Shown: piece after piece, positions 33,178-40,270 of the stretch
Layout of the letters: the number at the start of each line of letters is the position of its first letter
Position numbering within the stretch: position 1 is the first letter of the stretch
NCBI RefSeq assembly: GCF_013391105.1
Contig: NZ_CP058335.1
Span: forward strand, 1,116,001 to 1,180,000
DNA from: Natronomonas salina
GTDB lineage: Archaea; Halobacteriota; Halobacteria; Halobacteriales; Haloarculaceae
Reading direction: 5' to 3'
DNA length: 64,000 bases
Program-made: the position numbers and the translations under genes
Notes under the pieces: model-generated
What the model saw: the letters and a program-made list of their open reading frames with translations, nothing else
What the model was told of the DNA's origin: nothing
Databases searched by the model: none

Positions 33178-34152
33178 ATGACGCGGGGACCGGTCGAGTC
33201 GGTCCTGGAGACGGTCGGGAACACGCCGCTCGTCCGGGTCGAAGCCGCCCCCGAGGAGGTGCCGGTCTACGCCAAGCTCGAGTCGTTCAACCCCGGCGCG
33301 AGCGTCAAGGACCGCATCGGCGCGTACATCTGCGAGCAGCTGATCGAGCGGGGCGAGCTCGAAGAAGGCGGCACCATCGTCGAGCCGACGGCCGGGAACA
33401 CCGGCATCGGGCTGGCCATCGCGGCCAACCAGCTGGACCTCGAGGCGGTCTTCGTCGTCCCGGAGCGGTTCAGCGTCGAGAAGCAGACGCTCATGCGCGC
33501 CCTCGGCGCCGAGGTGGTCAACACGCCGACAGAGGACGCGATGGGCGGCGCCATCGAGCGCGCCCGCGAGATCGCCGACGGCCGGGAGGACGCGGTCGTC
33601 CCCCAGCAGTTCGCGAACCCGCTGAACGTCGAGGCCCACGAGCGGACGACAGGCCCCGAGATCTACGACGCGCTGGACGGCGAGGTCGGCGCGGTCGTCG
33701 TCGGCTGCGGCACCTGCGGCACCCTCGTCGGCGTCGCGCGGTACGTCCTCGAGCGCGAACCGGACGTCCACGTCGTCGCCGTCGAGCCCGAGGGATCGGT
33801 GTTCGCGCGGGCGCTCGGCGCGGATGTCGACGAGGACGAGTACACCATCGAGGGCATCGGCACCCACGAACTCGAGCGGAACGAGCTGTTCGACCCCGAG
33901 GTGGTCGACGAGGTGCTCCAGGTCGGCGACCGGGCCGCTCACGACGAGCTGCAGCGGCTCGCCCGCGAGGAGGGCCACCTCGTGGCGTCGAGCTCCGGCG
34001 CGGCGAGCGTCGGCGCCCGGCGGGTGGCGGAGCGCATCCGCGACGGCGACCTCGACGTCCCCCACGACGCGGTCGCGACGGTCTTCCCGGACTCCAGCGA
34101 GCGGTACCTCTCGAAGCACATCTACGGCGACTTCGAAGATTGGCAGCCATGA
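33178..34152 (+). CDS. PLP-dependent cysteine/cystathionine beta-synthase family
   Basis: The 324-residue fold type II PLP enzyme has NTPLVRVE, the PLP lysine K44 in NPGASVKDRIG, the EPTAGNTGIGLA loop, and the phosphate-binding VGCGTCGTLVG. It may make cysteine from O-acetyl/phosphoserine and sulfide, or cystathionine from homocysteine. The C-terminal CBS regulatory domain is absent. The next gene overlaps by 4 nt and is a cystathionine gamma-synthase/lyase relative, which points to a transsulfuration operon. AGGAGAGGGGAG lies just upstream of the ATG. Confidence 0.9.
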   Translation: MTRGPVESVLETVGNTPLVRVEAAPEEVPVYAKLESFNPGASVKDRIGAYICEQLIERGELEEGGTIVEPTAGNTGIGLAIAANQLDLEAVFVVPERFSVEKQTLMRALGAEVVNTPTEDAMGGAIERAREIADGREDAVVPQQFANPLNVEAHERTTGPEIYDALDGEVGAVVVGCGTCGTLVGVARYVLEREPDVHVVAVEPEGSVFARALGADVDEDEYTIEGIGTHELERNELFDPEVVDEVLQVGDRAAHDELQRLAREEGHLVASSSGAASVGARRVAERIRDGDLDVPHDAVATVFPDSSERYLSKHIYGDFEDWQP

Positions 34153-35333
34153 CACACGACGACACACCCGACGACGCGGCCGACGGACGCATCGAGACCC
34201 GAGCCATCCACGCCGGCCAGGACCCGGACGAGGAGACGGGCGCCATCATGACGCCCATCTACGCCTCCTCGACGTACGTCCAGGACGGGCCCGGCGACCA
34301 CCGCGGCTACGAGTACTCCCGGACGGGCAACCCGACGCGGTCCGCCCTCGAGGCCAACCTCGCGGACCTGGAGGGCGGCGAGTACGGCCGCGCCTTCGCC
34401 AGCGGGATGGCCGGCATCAACACCGTCCTGAACCTACTGGAGTCCGGCGACCACGTGCTGGCCGGCGAGGACGTCTACGGCGGCACCCACCGACTGTTCG
34501 AGCAGGTCTACGAGGACTACGACCTCGAGTTCTCCTTCGTCGACACGACCGACCTCGAGGCGGTCGAGGCCGCCGTCCGGCCGAACACCGAGCTGGTGTG
34601 GGTCGAGACGCCGACGAACCCCCTGCTGCGGGTCAACGATATCGCGGCGCTCGCCGACCTCGCCCACGAGCACGACGCGCTCTGTGCGGTCGACAACACC
34701 TTCGCGACGCCGTACCTCCAGCAGCCGCTGGACCTCGGCGCCGACGTCGTCTCCCACTCGCTGACGAAGTACCTCGGCGGCCACTCGGACCTCGTCGCCG
34801 GCGCGCTCGTCACGGACGACCCCGACCTCGACGAGCGGTTCGGCTTCTACCAGAACTCGGTTGGGGCGACGCCCGGCCCGTTCGACTGCTTCCTGGTCCT
34901 CCGGGGGACCAAGACGCTCCCCGTCCGGATGGACCGCCACTGCGAGAACGCGCGGGCGCTCGCCCGGTGGCTCGACGACCACCCCGACGTCTCGGACGTC
35001 TACTACCCCGGCCTCGAGTCCCACCCCCAGCACGACCTCGCGGCCGAGCAGATGGCCGACTTCGGCGGCATGCTGAGCTTCGAACTCGACGCCTCCCTGG
35101 AGGAGGCCGCCGAGGTCGTCTCCTCGACGGACGTGTTCACGCTCGCGGAGAGCCTCGGGGGCGTCGAGAGCCTCATCGAACAGCCGGCGACGATGACCCA
35201 CGCGGCCATCCCGGCCGAACGGCGCCGCGAGGCCGGCCTCACCGACGGCCTCGTCCGCGTCAGCGTCGGACTGGAGCACGTCGACGACCTGCGGACGGAC
35301 CTCGAGTCGGCCTTCGACACCGCCCTCGAGTGA
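34149..35333 (+). CDS. cystathionine gamma-synthase/lyase family protein
   Basis: The 394-residue Cys/Met metabolism PLP enzyme has ETRAIHAGQDPDEETGAIMTPIY, YEYSRTGNPTRSALE, FASGMAGI, ETPTNPLLRV, VDNTFATPYLQQP, and the PLP Lys207 in SHSLTKYLGGHSD. SLGGVESLIEQPATMTHA closes the active site. It either forms cystathionine or cleaves it to cysteine; with the preceding synthase, cleavage to cysteine is plausible. ATGA overlap with the upstream gene indicates coupling. Confidence 0.92.
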   Translation: MTHDDTPDDAADGRIETRAIHAGQDPDEETGAIMTPIYASSTYVQDGPGDHRGYEYSRTGNPTRSALEANLADLEGGEYGRAFASGMAGINTVLNLLESGDHVLAGEDVYGGTHRLFEQVYEDYDLEFSFVDTTDLEAVEAAVRPNTELVWVETPTNPLLRVNDIAALADLAHEHDALCAVDNTFATPYLQQPLDLGADVVSHSLTKYLGGHSDLVAGALVTDDPDLDERFGFYQNSVGATPGPFDCFLVLRGTKTLPVRMDRHCENARALARWLDDHPDVSDVYYPGLESHPQHDLAAEQMADFGGMLSFELDASLEEAAEVVSSTDVFTLAESLGGVESLIEQPATMTHAAIPAERRREAGLTDGLVRVSVGLEHVDDLRTDLESAFDTALE

Positions 35334-35345
35334 GGACGGTCGCGC

Positions 35346-36299
35346 CTAGCGCGACGCCAGGAACTCGGCGGCGCGGGCCCGCCCCCGGTCCATCAGGTCC
35401 TCGACGAAGGCCGGCGAGCGGTCGACCTTCGAGGAGTGTTCGAGGTTGTCACGTAGCTGGACGCGGTGGATCTCGGTCCGGCTGAACCGCTCCTCGGAGA
35501 GGTGGCCCTCGTCGATCCACCGGTTGACGCGCTCGATGAACCCCAGCTCCTGGTTCAGCGAGATGTTACCGGACAGCTCGTTGCGGCGGTCGGTGATCTC
35601 CTCGAGGGACGTCGGCTCCTCCTCGCGGGCCTGCGGCTCGATCTGGACGACCCACAGCTCGTCCGGCTGCCGCTCCTCGGGCGCGGTCACGAGGTCGTGG
35701 ACGGGCGGGTTCTGGCTGAAGAGGCCGTCCCAGTGGTAGTGGCCGTCGATCTCGACGGCGCGGAACAGCGTCGGCACCGCCGCAGAGGCCAGCACCGCGT
35801 CGGCGGTCACCTCGCGGTTCGTGAACGTCTCGAACTCGCCGGCGTTGACGTCCACGGTGCCGACGACCAGTTCCGGGCGCTCGGGGTCGTCGGCCAGCGC
35901 ACGGATCGCCTCGAAGTCGACGTGCCGTTCGACGAGCGCGCGGAACTCTCGCTCCCGCCACGGCGACGTCGGCCGGAAGTAGGGGCTGACCTGGGGGACC
36001 GGGAAGCCGCTAGCCTCGACCCGTCTCGTCCAGACGAACGCGGCGTTGGCCATCCGGTCTGCCGGGCCTCCGGCGGCGACGTCGTCCCAGACGTCGTCCA
36101 GCAGTTCGACGGCCCGCTCCCGGCCCTCGGTCACCAGCCCGTACCACGCGACGACGGCGTTGAGCGCGCCGCCGGAGGTGCCGGAGAGCCCGACCAGTTC
36201 GTCGTCCTCGTCCCAGTTCTCGAGGGCGTGCTGCAGGACGCCGGCGGTGAACGCGGTGTGGCTGCCGCCGCCCTGGCAGGCGATGGCGACGTTGCTCAT
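35346..36299 (-). CDS. patatin-like phospholipase
   Basis: The 317-residue protein has the patatin oxyanion loop ACQGGGSHTAF (about 7-17), nucleophile Ser42 in GTSGG, and the Asp-Gly dyad in HYHWDGLFSQNPP. Patatins are Ser-Asp dyad lipid acyl hydrolases. No signal peptide. ATG 36299 sits at the family start; a reading extended to 36557 adds unrelated sequence. It converges with the cystathionine gene. Confidence 0.92.
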   Translation of the reverse strand: MSNVAIACQGGGSHTAFTAGVLQHALENWDEDDELVGLSGTSGGALNAVVAWYGLVTEGRERAVELLDDVWDDVAAGGPADRMANAAFVWTRRVEASGFPVPQVSPYFRPTSPWREREFRALVERHVDFEAIRALADDPERPELVVGTVDVNAGEFETFTNREVTADAVLASAAVPTLFRAVEIDGHYHWDGLFSQNPPVHDLVTAPEERQPDELWVVQIEPQAREEEPTSLEEITDRRNELSGNISLNQELGFIERVNRWIDEGHLSEERFSRTEIHRVQLRDNLEHSSKVDRSPAFVEDLMDRGRARAAEFLASR

Positions 36300-36531
36300 G
36301 TCGACTCCGCGCGGAGCCGACCGCGGTTGGGCGTCACGATACCCTCGCCGCGACGTTCGCTCGACCCGCCGGACACGTACCTCGGTGGTTCCTCCAGTCA
36401 TCGGGTGAGTGGACGCACTCCGGACGGGAAGCCCTTCTGTCGCCGTCCGAGATGAGCCGACAGATGCGAACACTCTACCAGCAATAAACTCCTGTTCTTT
36501 TCCGAGCGCTACCACCTCGTTCCTGTCGCCG

Positions 36532-36891: not shown

Positions 36892-38598
36892 ATGAATACG
36901 GTCGAGCGGTGGAAACAGGAGAAGCATCCCCTCGACGTCGTCGAAGACGTCCGGCGGTACGCCGACGAGGAGATGACCTTCGAGGAGATCGAGGCGGAGG
37001 CCGGCCACGGCGAGTGGGAGCGGCTCAAGTGGGCCGGGATGTACGCCCACGGCAACCACGACGACTACTTCATGGTGCGGACGAAGGTCCCCGGCGGTCG
37101 CCTGACGCCCGAGCAGGCCGAGGTCGTCGGCGAGGTGGCCGACGAGTACGCCACCGCCCCCGAGGAGTTCGGCGGCAGCGAGCAGAACCCGATCTGGGGC
37201 GACGCCTTCCTCGACGTCACCACGCGACAGGACGTCCAGATGCACTGGATCGAGGTCGAGGACGTCCCGGAGATCTGGGACCGCTACGACGAGGTCGGCC
37301 TGACCACGATCCAGGGGTGCGGCGACTCGGCGCGGAACGTCCTCGGTTGTCCCGCGGCGGGGTTGGACGACCACGAGTGCTTCGACGCCCAACCGGTCGT
37401 CGACGCCGTCTCGGAGTTCTTCACCGAGAACCGGGAGTACGCCAACCTGCCGCGGAAGTTCAAGATGACCGTCACCGGCTGCCGGCAGGACTGCGCGCAG
37501 TCCCAGATCAACGACGTCGGGCTCGTGCCGGCCCGCAAGTCGATCGGCGACGACGATTACTACGGCTTCCACGCCCGCGTCGGCGGCGGCCTCTCGGACG
37601 GGCCGCGGATGGCCTCGACGCTGGACGTCTTCGTCCGGCCGGAGGACGCCGTGGAGTTCTGCCGCGCCATCGCCCAGACGTTCAAGGAACTCGGCGACCG
37701 GCACAACCGCGGCGTCTGTCGGATGCGCTACCTCGTCGAGCAGATGGGCCCCGAGAAGTTCGAGGCGGCGGTCCGGGACCGCTGTGCCGTCGACCTCCGG
37801 GAGCGGGGCGTCGACCTCACCGAGGGGTACGCCGGCGACCACGTCGGCGTCCACGACCAGCGCGAGGACGGACTGCAGTACGTCGGGTTCAACGTCATCG
37901 GCGGCCGGATGGGCGGCGAGGAGTTCGCACAGGCGGCCCGCGCCGCTCGCGAGCACGGCACCGAGGCGTCGACGGTCCGACTCGCCACCGACCAGAACTT
38001 CCTCGTCACGCACGTCCCCGAGGAGAACGTCGACGACCTGCTCGCCGAGCCGTGGGCGCGGGACTATCAGCCCGACCCCGGACCGTTCTCCCGGGGCGCC
38101 GTCGGCTGTACCGGCTCGGAGTTCTGCAACTACGGCATCATCGAGACGAAGAACCGCGTCCGCCGGTGGGCGAAGGAACTCGACGAGCGCATCGACACGC
38201 CCGACGACCTCGAGGTCGTCCGGATGCACATGTCGGGCTGTTCGGCCTCCTGCGCGCAGCCCCAGATCGCAGATATCGGCTTCCGCGGCGAGACAGTCAA
38301 AGTCGAAACCGAGGACAACGCGGACGACGACATCGTCGAGGGGATGGACTTCGGGCTCGGCGGCTCGCTCGGCGCCGACAACGAGTTCCTCAACTGGGTC
38401 GAGGCGGCGGTCCCCGCGGAGTCGGTCATCCCCGCGATGGAGCAACTGTTCGAGGCGTACGCCGACGAGCGCGAGGACGGCGAACGGTTCTACGAGTGGT
38501 GCCGACGGGTCGACGACGCCCGACTGCGGGACGTGATGCAGCGGGCGGAAGCGAACGTCGCCGGCGGCGTCGCGGCGGAGGTGGCCAATGACGACTGA
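36892..38598 (+). CDS. siroheme sulfite/nitrite reductase (assimilatory)
   Basis: The 568-residue protein has the duplicated NiR/SiR fold. The siroheme/[4Fe-4S] ligands are C406, C412 (CTGSEFC) and C450, C454 (GCSASC). It performs a six-electron reduction of sulfite to sulfide or nitrite to ammonia. The ATG at 36892 is set by a perfect AGGAGGTG ribosome site 6 nt upstream; a GTG at 36883 would sit inside it. It overlaps the FrhB-like gene by 11 nt. Nearby cysteine genes and no nitrate genes favour sulfite, but motifs do not decide. Confidence 0.88.
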   Translation: MNTVERWKQEKHPLDVVEDVRRYADEEMTFEEIEAEAGHGEWERLKWAGMYAHGNHDDYFMVRTKVPGGRLTPEQAEVVGEVADEYATAPEEFGGSEQNPIWGDAFLDVTTRQDVQMHWIEVEDVPEIWDRYDEVGLTTIQGCGDSARNVLGCPAAGLDDHECFDAQPVVDAVSEFFTENREYANLPRKFKMTVTGCRQDCAQSQINDVGLVPARKSIGDDDYYGFHARVGGGLSDGPRMASTLDVFVRPEDAVEFCRAIAQTFKELGDRHNRGVCRMRYLVEQMGPEKFEAAVRDRCAVDLRERGVDLTEGYAGDHVGVHDQREDGLQYVGFNVIGGRMGGEEFAQAARAAREHGTEASTVRLATDQNFLVTHVPEENVDDLLAEPWARDYQPDPGPFSRGAVGCTGSEFCNYGIIETKNRVRRWAKELDERIDTPDDLEVVRMHMSGCSASCAQPQIADIGFRGETVKVETEDNADDDIVEGMDFGLGGSLGADNEFLNWVEAAVPAESVIPAMEQLFEAYADEREDGERFYEWCRRVDDARLRDVMQRAEANVAGGVAAEVANDD

Positions 38599-40270
38599 GA
38601 AAAATACCGACGTGCCGGCCGACGCCGCGCCGGAATTGCACGAGGACCTAGAGGACGACGAGGACCCGCTCCCCGGCGTCCCGGACGTCGGCAAGCACGA
38701 CGGCGTCGGCGTCCCGCCGGTCAGCGGCCAGTCGCCGGGCCACGACCCGGACCCGGGCAAGCCCATCCGGTACGTCCAGCGGCCGGCCGACGGCGGCGAC
38801 GAAAACGACGACTGCTGCGACGGCGGCTGCACGTGTGGAGGGGAGGGCACCGCTGCGCCGAAGCCGGCTGCTGCCGGCGGCGACGGACCACGTCCTTCAG
38901 TACGTCGGGCGTCGCCCGACGGAGGGACGACTCCCGCGAACGTCGACAGCGACGGCAGCCTCGGGGACGTGGAGTTCACGGAACCGCAAGCGGACGTCAG
39001 CCAGGACGTCGACAGCGGCGCGCCGGACGAGCGCGTCGACCCGCCGGAGGGCGTCGACCTCGACACGCCGGGGTACTCGATCCGCGAGGAGATGAACGAC
39101 ATCGAGACGCCGGACGAGAAGACCTGGTTCATGGAACTCGACGAGGCCGTCATCGACGACGGCCGGTGCATCCAGTGTGGGACCTGCGTCGCGTCCTGCC
39201 CGTCGGACTCCATCGGCATCGGCGACGACGGCCTGCCCGAACTGGTGAAGATGTGCACCGGCTGCTCGCTGTGCTGGGACTTCTGCCCGCGCGGCGGGCT
39301 CCGCTACGAACGGCAGTGGAAGATCACCGGCGGCGACGACAACGTGAAGGGCGCCGGCGACCCGATTACGGAGTTCTCCGCGAAGGTCGGCGAGGCCTGG
39401 CAGCGGAACGCCCAGGACGGCGGCGTCGTGACGGCGGTGCTCTCGAAGCTCCTCGAGGAGGGCGAGATCGACGGCGCCCTGATCGCCACCGAGAGCGACG
39501 AGGAGCCCTGGAAGGCGGAGTCGTTCCTCGCGACGACGCACGGGGAGCTGGTCGCCAACGCCGGGAGCTTCTACAACCAGACGATGGCGCTCGGCAACCT
39601 CGACCTCCAGCAGTGGGAGCACAAGCTCGACGGGCCAGTGGAGGAGGCCTCCCTGGCCCTGGTCGGCACGCCCTGCGAGATCGAGGGCATCCGCGCGCTG
39701 CAGGACTTCGAGTGGGAGTACGGCAGTCAGGAGGCGGGCGTCTGCGCCATCGACTACACGGTCGCGCTGATGTGCACGAAGAACTTCAACTACTACCGGC
39801 TCATCGGCGAGCAACTGGAGGCGAAGCGCGGCGTCTCGCCGGACGAGATCGGCAAGATGGACGTCCTCGACGGGCGGATGATGGTCTACGACCACGACGG
39901 CGACATGCTCGTCGACGAGAACGTCGAGAACTTCCACGACGCGGCGCTGAAGGGCTGCAACGAGTGCGCCGACTTCACGGGCTACTGTGCGGACCTGACG
40001 GTCGGCTCGGTCGGCTCCAGCGACGAGTACTCCAGCGTCATCGTCCGGACCGAGCGGGGTCTGAACGCGTGGGAACTGGTCGAACCGGAGCTCGACTACC
40101 ACGACCTGGAGGACCGCAGCGCGGTCGGCAAGCTCCAGGGCTGGGACAAGAAGAACGCCTTCGAGTCGCTCGAACGGCCGTTCGACCCCGACGCACCGCG
40201 GTTCGTCGACTACACCGACCACGCGGAGAACTACGGGACGACGCTGAATCCACACGACAGCGACCACTGA
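38588..40270 (+). CDS. FrhB/FpoF-like coenzyme F420 oxidoreductase iron-sulfur subunit
   Basis: The 560-residue protein has two [4Fe-4S] ferredoxin motifs (C194, C197, C200, C204 and C223, C226, C229, C233), then an FrhB/FdhB-type N and C domain (EAWQRNAQDGGVVTAVLSKLLE; LVGTPCEIEGIRAL; CNECADFTGYCADLTVGSVG). This family oxidises F420H2 with FAD and passes electrons through the clusters. The first about 170 residues are a disordered acidic extension with an odd Cys knot (C76, C77, C81, C83). GGAGGTG lies 4 nt before the ATG. Together with the reductase it could form an F420H2-driven sulfite or nitrite reductase. Confidence 0.85.
   Translation: MTTEKNTDVPADAAPELHEDLEDDEDPLPGVPDVGKHDGVGVPPVSGQSPGHDPDPGKPIRYVQRPADGGDENDDCCDGGCTCGGEGTAAPKPAAAGGDGPRPSVRRASPDGGTTPANVDSDGSLGDVEFTEPQADVSQDVDSGAPDERVDPPEGVDLDTPGYSIREEMNDIETPDEKTWFMELDEAVIDDGRCIQCGTCVASCPSDSIGIGDDGLPELVKMCTGCSLCWDFCPRGGLRYERQWKITGGDDNVKGAGDPITEFSAKVGEAWQRNAQDGGVVTAVLSKLLEEGEIDGALIATESDEEPWKAESFLATTHGELVANAGSFYNQTMALGNLDLQQWEHKLDGPVEEASLALVGTPCEIEGIRALQDFEWEYGSQEAGVCAIDYTVALMCTKNFNYYRLIGEQLEAKRGVSPDEIGKMDVLDGRMMVYDHDGDMLVDENVENFHDAALKGCNECADFTGYCADLTVGSVGSSDEYSSVIVRTERGLNAWELVEPELDYHDLEDRSAVGKLQGWDKKNAFESLERPFDPDAPRFVDYTDHAENYGTTLNPHDSDH

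Follow-up and report, generated by a model that had tools for sequence, protein, structure and literature searches.

Do two overlapping genes of the haloarchaeon Natronomonas salina encode an enzyme that carries electrons from reduced coenzyme F420 (F420H2) to sulfite, and what would such an enzyme be for? The genes lie in a 64,000-nucleotide stretch of contig NZ_CP058335.1 (positions 1,116,001 to 1,180,000; hereafter the window, to which all coordinates without a locus name refer), and a first-pass annotation of its sequence had read them as a two-subunit F420H2-dependent assimilatory sulfite (or nitrite) reductase. The idea is not new. It was published in 2012, when the haloarchaeal pair was named aFsr and put forward as a putative assimilatory sulfite reductase dependent on F420H2 (Susanti & Mukhopadhyay 2012, PMC3448663); in the sections of that paper available here, aFsr-alpha is an assimilatory-type sulfite reductase and aFsr-beta an F420H2 dehydrogenase. 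Subunits, pairing, lineage and the makeup of beta (FrhB plus two N-terminal [4Fe-4S] motifs) are the same in both cases, and the N. salina pair is an ordinary aFsr copy in good order. Relative to those sections, the evidence given below from the active site, from alternation with the stand-alone reductase SirA, from the nitrate gene nasA and from rhodanese proteins is new. The enzyme was still called putative in 2022 (PMC9295563), a 2021 review of F420 gives F420H2-dependent sulfite reductase (Fsr) for methanogens only and describes the role of F420 in halophiles as undetermined (PMC8498797), and haloarchaeal F420 has been called enigmatic (PMC8305020). Our literature search, in which subscription journals were mostly missing, found no experimental report on aFsr.

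We conclude that the aFsr pair is probably an F420H2-dependent sulfite reductase. This core of the first-pass reading is the best supported because of the residues of the substrate pocket, the F420 enzymes among the relatives of beta, the F420 genes of the genome, the alternation with SirA and the lack of a link to nasA. We are less sure that it serves mainly in assimilation and not in detoxification.

The gene pair and its conservation

Both genes of the pair are real. The first (36892..38598, forward strand) encodes aFsr-alpha, a 568-residue siroheme/[4Fe-4S] assimilatory-type reductase of the NirA/SirA family (P0001), recognized by its Pfam matches (NIR_SIR, 1.7e-55; NIR_SIR_ferr, 1.3e-30) and by AlphaFold/Foldseek. 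The second (38588..40270, forward strand) encodes aFsr-beta, a 560-residue protein of F420H2 dehydrogenase type (P0002), in which two ferredoxin-like clusters accompany an FrhB domain; its Pfam matches (FrhB_FdhB_C, 1.9e-31; FrhB_FdhB_N, 1.9e-19) are preceded by two [4Fe-4S] motifs, and PDB matches agree. The open reading frames place the start of beta inside the end of alpha, and their coordinates bear out the 11-nt overlap (38588..38598, forward strand) described in the first-pass annotation.

The pairing of alpha and beta is conserved far beyond chance. A scan of public genomes for homologous loci kept 80, all haloarchaeal, and alpha lies immediately 5′ of beta on the same strand in 79 of these; L003 and L008 are incomplete at that spot, and L074 is an orphan beta. 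Among the aFsr pairs examined (~77), a start codon yields an overlap of either 8 or 11 nt, and the only FrhB-type gene in the N. salina genome is the copy adjoining alpha. Adjacency, overlap and a single FrhB gene form the pattern expected of two subunits of one enzyme, although they are no proof of it. A similar arrangement recurs in a second F420-linked clade (hereafter rhodanese-type; loci L101–L111, L114–L116, L159 and L161), where a two-domain rhodanese-siroheme protein of ~800 aa is followed by an FrhB-type subunit of ~400 aa. That alpha and beta are just co-transcribed and work as separate enzymes is therefore highly improbable, given the adjacency, the kept overlap and the recurrence of the pairing in a separate clade; in its favor are rare orphan copies of beta (L074, L112 and L113, 69–71% identity), which have no siroheme reductase alongside.

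Individual copies vary in other ways. Beta matches come in two pieces in two genomes (G136 C1:1325922-1327679 and G226 C3:640476-642188), possibly reflecting an insertion, a frameshift or a stretch of low similarity. Plasmid pHME505 of Haloferax mediterranei ATCC 33500 has an aFsr pair (L158, 7221-10641; E6P09_RS15580 and E6P09_RS15575), whose alpha is annotated as ferredoxin--nitrite reductase.

Family, substrate pocket and electron donor

The alpha subunit belongs to the NirA/SirA branch of siroheme reductases. Among sequence matches, plant nitrite reductases come nearest to P0001 (2e-81), and Fsr is far off (just 7e-9). Its AlphaFold model (predicted local distance difference test, pLDDT, 87) has M. 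tuberculosis NirA (1zj8) as top Foldseek match, with a fold TM of 0.82 to 1zj8 vs 0.36 to Fsr; the N226K mutant of tobacco nitrite reductase (3vlx) is also among the fold-search matches. The four cysteines named in the first-pass annotation are present at those positions and form the siroheme-[4Fe-4S] ligand motif, C406-X5-C412 at 38107..38127 and C450-X3-C454 at 38239..38253 (both forward strand), and are invariant in all 78 aligned aFsr homologues; the first half of the motif is likewise invariant in 14 rhodanese-type proteins.

Residues of the substrate pocket argue for sulfite. Sulfite reductases have a common Arg/Arg/Lys/Lys pocket (PMC10229431), and nitrite reductases have Asn in place of the second Lys (Asn226 in tobacco Nii3). 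The four pocket residues R63, R148, K189 and K191 are conserved in aFsr-alpha, both Arg being assigned through alignment alone, and the Lys-Lys pair sits in K189-F190-K191 (37456..37464, forward strand). K191 is kept in 77/77 aFsr-alpha, 11/11 SirA and 14/14 rhodanese-type proteins, whereas all ten haloarchaeal NirA sequences compared, mostly nasA-associated, have Asn. Cys143 (codon at 37318..37320, forward strand) follows a similar pattern, being invariant in aFsr-alpha (78/78) and SirA (11/11) and replaced by Gly in haloarchaeal NirA (10/10). Together with Y59 it stands, as judged from sequence, at a plausible position for the covalent Tyr-Cys pair of the active site; such a bond is reported for M. 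tuberculosis NirA, which despite its name is described as a sulfite reductase (Schnell 2005, according to PMC11237513).

These features set aFsr apart from each of its siroheme relatives. Haloarchaeal NirA, of the ferredoxin-nitrite type, is of the same superfamily and ~40% identical to alpha, but differs at Lys191 and Cys143 and has nasA neighbors. Haloarchaeal SirA shares the Lys-Lys pair and Cys143 yet has no F420 subunit and forms a separate, fully supported clade, and M. tuberculosis NirA resembles alpha in fold and also lacks an F420 subunit. Methanogen Fsr (group I; 7np8 and 7npa) has in common with aFsr the cluster layout of the F420H2 oxidase and the siroheme motif CX5C...CX3C. However, a single polypeptide makes up Fsr, its F420 half preceding a siroheme half of Dsr type, whereas aFsr is two genes with the siroheme gene first. 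The first-pass annotation was thus right that the order is reversed with respect to Fsr, but the likeness to Fsr that it implied does not extend to alpha, and aFsr is not simply Fsr cut in two because alpha is not Dsr-type. We rejected a split or degraded Fsr on both sequence and fold.

In a maximum-likelihood tree, the siroheme reductases form four clades (aFsr, rhodanese-type, SirA and NirA), and a split with full support separates the two FrhB-linked clades from SirA and NirA. This suggests that the F420 link in siroheme reductases arose once, a suggestion that goes no further because the tree was midpoint-rooted and the program warned of long branches meeting.

The beta subunit keeps several cofactor-site features of FrhB-type F420 enzymes. 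All eight cysteines of its two [4Fe-4S] motifs (C194-x2-C197-x2-C200-x3-C204 and C223-x2-C226-x2-C229-x3-C233; 39167..39286, forward strand), which the first-pass annotation had also noticed, are kept in 80/80 aFsr and 14/14 rhodanese-type homologues. The FrhB domain (39380..40084, forward strand) was aligned to 3zfs and compared with the FAD, cluster and F420 sites of FrhB given in PMC3591093. A third set of cluster cysteines, C363, C396, C457 and C460 (FrhB C104, C134, C192 and C195), is present in 80/80 betas, as are the QDGG flavin loop (residues 276–279), the GSVGS loop on the F420 side (473–477) and S474-V475 (FrhB S209-V210). Among solved sequences, P0002 is nearest to the zeta subunit (an F420 reductase) of an ethanotroph carbon monoxide dehydrogenase (CODH; 8riu, 1.3e-39), followed by Fsr (7np8/7npa) and FrhB (3zfs). 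Foldseek ranked 8riu, Fsr and FrhB likewise and gave a weaker match to ferredoxin-dependent HCAR; the P0002 model has a pLDDT of 55 overall, and the FrhB core alone is usable. Like beta, the CODH zeta module (8riu) and the Fwd module (8rja) of ethanotrophs are free-standing adaptors made of FrhB and a two-cluster ferredoxin. Their partners are CODH or Fwd and they reduce F420, whereas the proposed partner in aFsr is a siroheme protein. The N. salina genome encodes CofD and Fno above cut-off, in agreement with the earlier statement that haloarchaea make F420.

Ahead of these domains, beta carries an acidic low-complexity extension (about residues 1–160; 38588..39067, forward strand), a low-confidence region of the model that is missing from the rhodanese-type clade. 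It contains a CxC motif (C81-x-C83), found in ~66/80 homologues, a possible extra metal or cluster site.

We infer that alpha and beta form one complex, that its electrons come from F420H2, that it reduces sulfite in the cell and that it works in assimilation. Beta would oxidize F420H2 at bound FAD, and electrons would pass from FAD to the beta cluster held by C363/C396/C457/C460, then through the two ferredoxin-like clusters to the siroheme-[4Fe-4S] center of alpha. There, a six-electron reduction would turn sulfite into sulfide for the synthesis of cysteine and methionine, and Fno would supply F420H2 from NADPH. The enzyme probably also clears toxic sulfite, and would be an alternative to stand-alone SirA that is able to replace it.

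Distribution, alternatives and physiological role

We find window-type aFsr-beta in 118 of 391 genomes of the class Halobacteria. SirA presence was called from the top E-value obtained with a SirA query, whose distribution is clearly two-peaked. SirA is missing from 58/118 carriers vs 66/273 other genomes. Within family f3 it tends to alternate with aFsr, being missing from 45/68 carriers vs 5/26 listed non-carriers (odds ratio 8.2); all these counts ignore shared ancestry. In 17/118 carriers aFsr-alpha is the sole siroheme reductase of its type, and 15 of these 17 genomes lack a nasA orthologue. Conversely, nasA is present in 39/41 SirA-less carriers that have a second reductase, and among ten such genomes the nasA locus holds a NirA-type reductase in nine, with Asn in all nine. 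N. salina itself has three siroheme reductases, aFsr-alpha, an Asn-bearing NirA beside nasA and a stand-alone SirA with Lys. As the first-pass annotation had said, there are no nitrate genes nearby: nasA and nirA are not in the window and lie ~275 kb off in the genome. It had also named homologues always next to nasA as a sign against a sulfite reductase, and such a pattern is not what we see, since none of the 80 aFsr loci has nasA or nirA within ~8 kb. Because carriers with aFsr as sole reductase mostly lack nasA, and NirA accompanies nasA elsewhere, we see no tie between aFsr and nitrate assimilation.

Several observations weigh against an F420H2-dependent assimilatory sulfite reductase, and some of them favor other donors or substrates. 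In beta, FrhB Lys75, near FAD, is replaced by F/V/I, and the FrhB F420 loop 163-IGKGK reads VLDGR. This would suit a sulfite reductase fed by ferredoxin, with the FrhB-type subunit serving as an F420-independent flavin adaptor like plant HCAR, which belongs to the fold family of beta. Haloarchaea are rich in ferredoxin, and SirA and NirA, both related to alpha, work without an FrhB-type subunit. We nevertheless regard ferredoxin as an unlikely donor, given that the nearest solved relatives of beta are all F420 enzymes, that its GSVGS loop is invariant and that CofD and Fno are encoded. The CODH zeta subunit, an active F420 reductase (PMC11493965), has N at the Lys75 position and IGEGK at the loop; since it too is without Lys75 and the first loop Lys, F420 use is compatible with the changes in beta. 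As to substrate, methanogen Fsr and FsrII also reduce nitrite (PMC10229431, PMC9295563, PMC10202398), and two genomes (G107 and G193; L118 and L119) have a nasA orthologue, no NirA and aFsr-alpha as sole siroheme reductase, so that aFsr might serve nitrite in them. An F420H2-dependent nitrite reductase that assimilates nitrate nitrogen or clears toxic nitrite would also fit the public label of alpha (ferredoxin--nitrite reductase), its sequence similarity to plant nitrite reductases and one rhodanese-type pair that adjoins nosZ. Such a function is improbable as the general one, however, since every aFsr-alpha copy has Lys where tobacco Nii3 has Asn226, N. salina has a separate Asn-bearing NirA beside nasA, most genomes in which aFsr stands alone lack nasA and none of the 80 loci lies near nasA or nirA.

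There are further points against. SirA is also present in N. salina, so aFsr is not obviously required for assimilation, and the co-occurrence counts carry the ancestry limit given above. We recognized no Sat-type ATP sulfurylase in the N. salina genome, nor a CysN above cut-off. The cysteine and cystathionine genes that the first-pass annotation had placed 1.6 kb from the pair are indeed there (1.56 kb), but their neighborhood is not conserved across the 80 loci (cysK is near just 1–2 and the cystathionine gamma-synthase gene near none), and we dropped it as support. The same F420H2-dependent sulfite chemistry might serve detoxification, or the occasional use of sulfite or thiosulfate, in place of routine sulfate assimilation, a possibility to which we give clearly less than an even chance. 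It would account for the patchy distribution, for a SirA alongside aFsr in N. salina, for the several aFsr copies borne on megaplasmids and for the absence of recognizable sulfate-to-sulfite genes (PMC3402447), and methanogen Fsr does detoxify sulfite (PMC10229431). In contrast, 17 genomes have no siroheme reductase of this type but aFsr, and in family f3 aFsr and SirA alternate, which suggests that the two have an interchangeable basic function.

If it is a soluble two-subunit F420H2:sulfite reductase, aFsr bears both on the role of F420 and on the origin of sulfide in haloarchaea. F420-oxidase modules would then have been coupled to siroheme enzymes at least twice, to one of Dsr type in methanogens and to one of NirA/SirA type here, and the public annotation of alpha as ferredoxin-nitrite reductase would be corrected.

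The rhodanese-type clade and neighboring genes

The rhodanese-type pairs differ from aFsr in their N-terminal two-domain rhodanese and their shorter FrhB-type subunit. Their siroheme proteins are 44–51% identical to P0001, with the Lys-Lys pair in 14/14 and Cys143 variable, and two genomes of the same genus as N. salina (G049 and G099) have such a pair. Rhodanese-NirA fusions of Halobacteria are known, and the available part of the paper describing them does not mention an F420 subunit (PMC11237513); we found no description of the rhodanese-siroheme/FrhB-type pairing in the literature searched.

This clade fits an earlier proposal for haloarchaeal sulfur metabolism. A 2012 paper (PMC3402447) noted that haloarchaeal genomes lack the usual route from sulfate to sulfide even though Natrinema sp. 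J7-2 can grow on sulfate, and proposed a route by way of thiosulfate, rhodanese and a sulfite reductase. In the rhodanese branch, the rhodanese domain may free sulfite from thiosulfate and the siroheme domain may reduce that sulfite with electrons from F420H2. We raise, tentatively and as less likely than not, the possibility of a two-branched haloarchaeal family of F420-linked siroheme reductases able to replace SirA, in which aFsr takes sulfite and the rhodanese branch thiosulfate. If so, F420 would for the first time have a defined physiological role in aerobic halophiles, and part of the missing route to sulfide would be accounted for. On plasmid 2 of Natronococcus occultus (L161, 4568-10384), nosZ and its accessory genes come immediately after the rhodanese-type pair, an adjacency that points against the thiosulfate reading. 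Another rhodanese-type pair (L108, 9812-15454) lies beside a CysH/CysD-like gene and siroheme-synthesis genes (SirC-like and uroporphyrinogen methyltransferase).

Upstream of aFsr in the window are a cysK/cysM-like gene for a pyridoxal phosphate enzyme (33178..34152, forward strand) and a cystathionine gamma-synthase-like gene (34149..35333, forward strand; PRK07811 above cut-off), neighbors outside the system. A patatin-like phospholipase gene (35346..36401) intervenes on the reverse strand, so the cysteine genes and the aFsr pair are not one operon. Across aFsr loci, the commonest neighbors are housekeeping genes of SRP54/FtsY/prefoldin type (~40 loci, as read from unscanned sequences). Two further candidates for sulfate-assimilation markers were set aside. 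The CysH/CysD-like gene (L088, 1216-2184) is near-universal in the Halobacteria tested and uninformative because it also occurs in genomes without any siroheme reductase, and the adenosine 5′-phosphosulfate (APS) kinase gene of N. salina adjoins a sulfotransferase-like gene in an apparent surface-modification locus. At L133 (6950-10046), an APS-kinase-like and nucleotidyltransferase-like fusion beside a sulfotransferase-like gene resembles a surface-sulfation locus, not assimilation.

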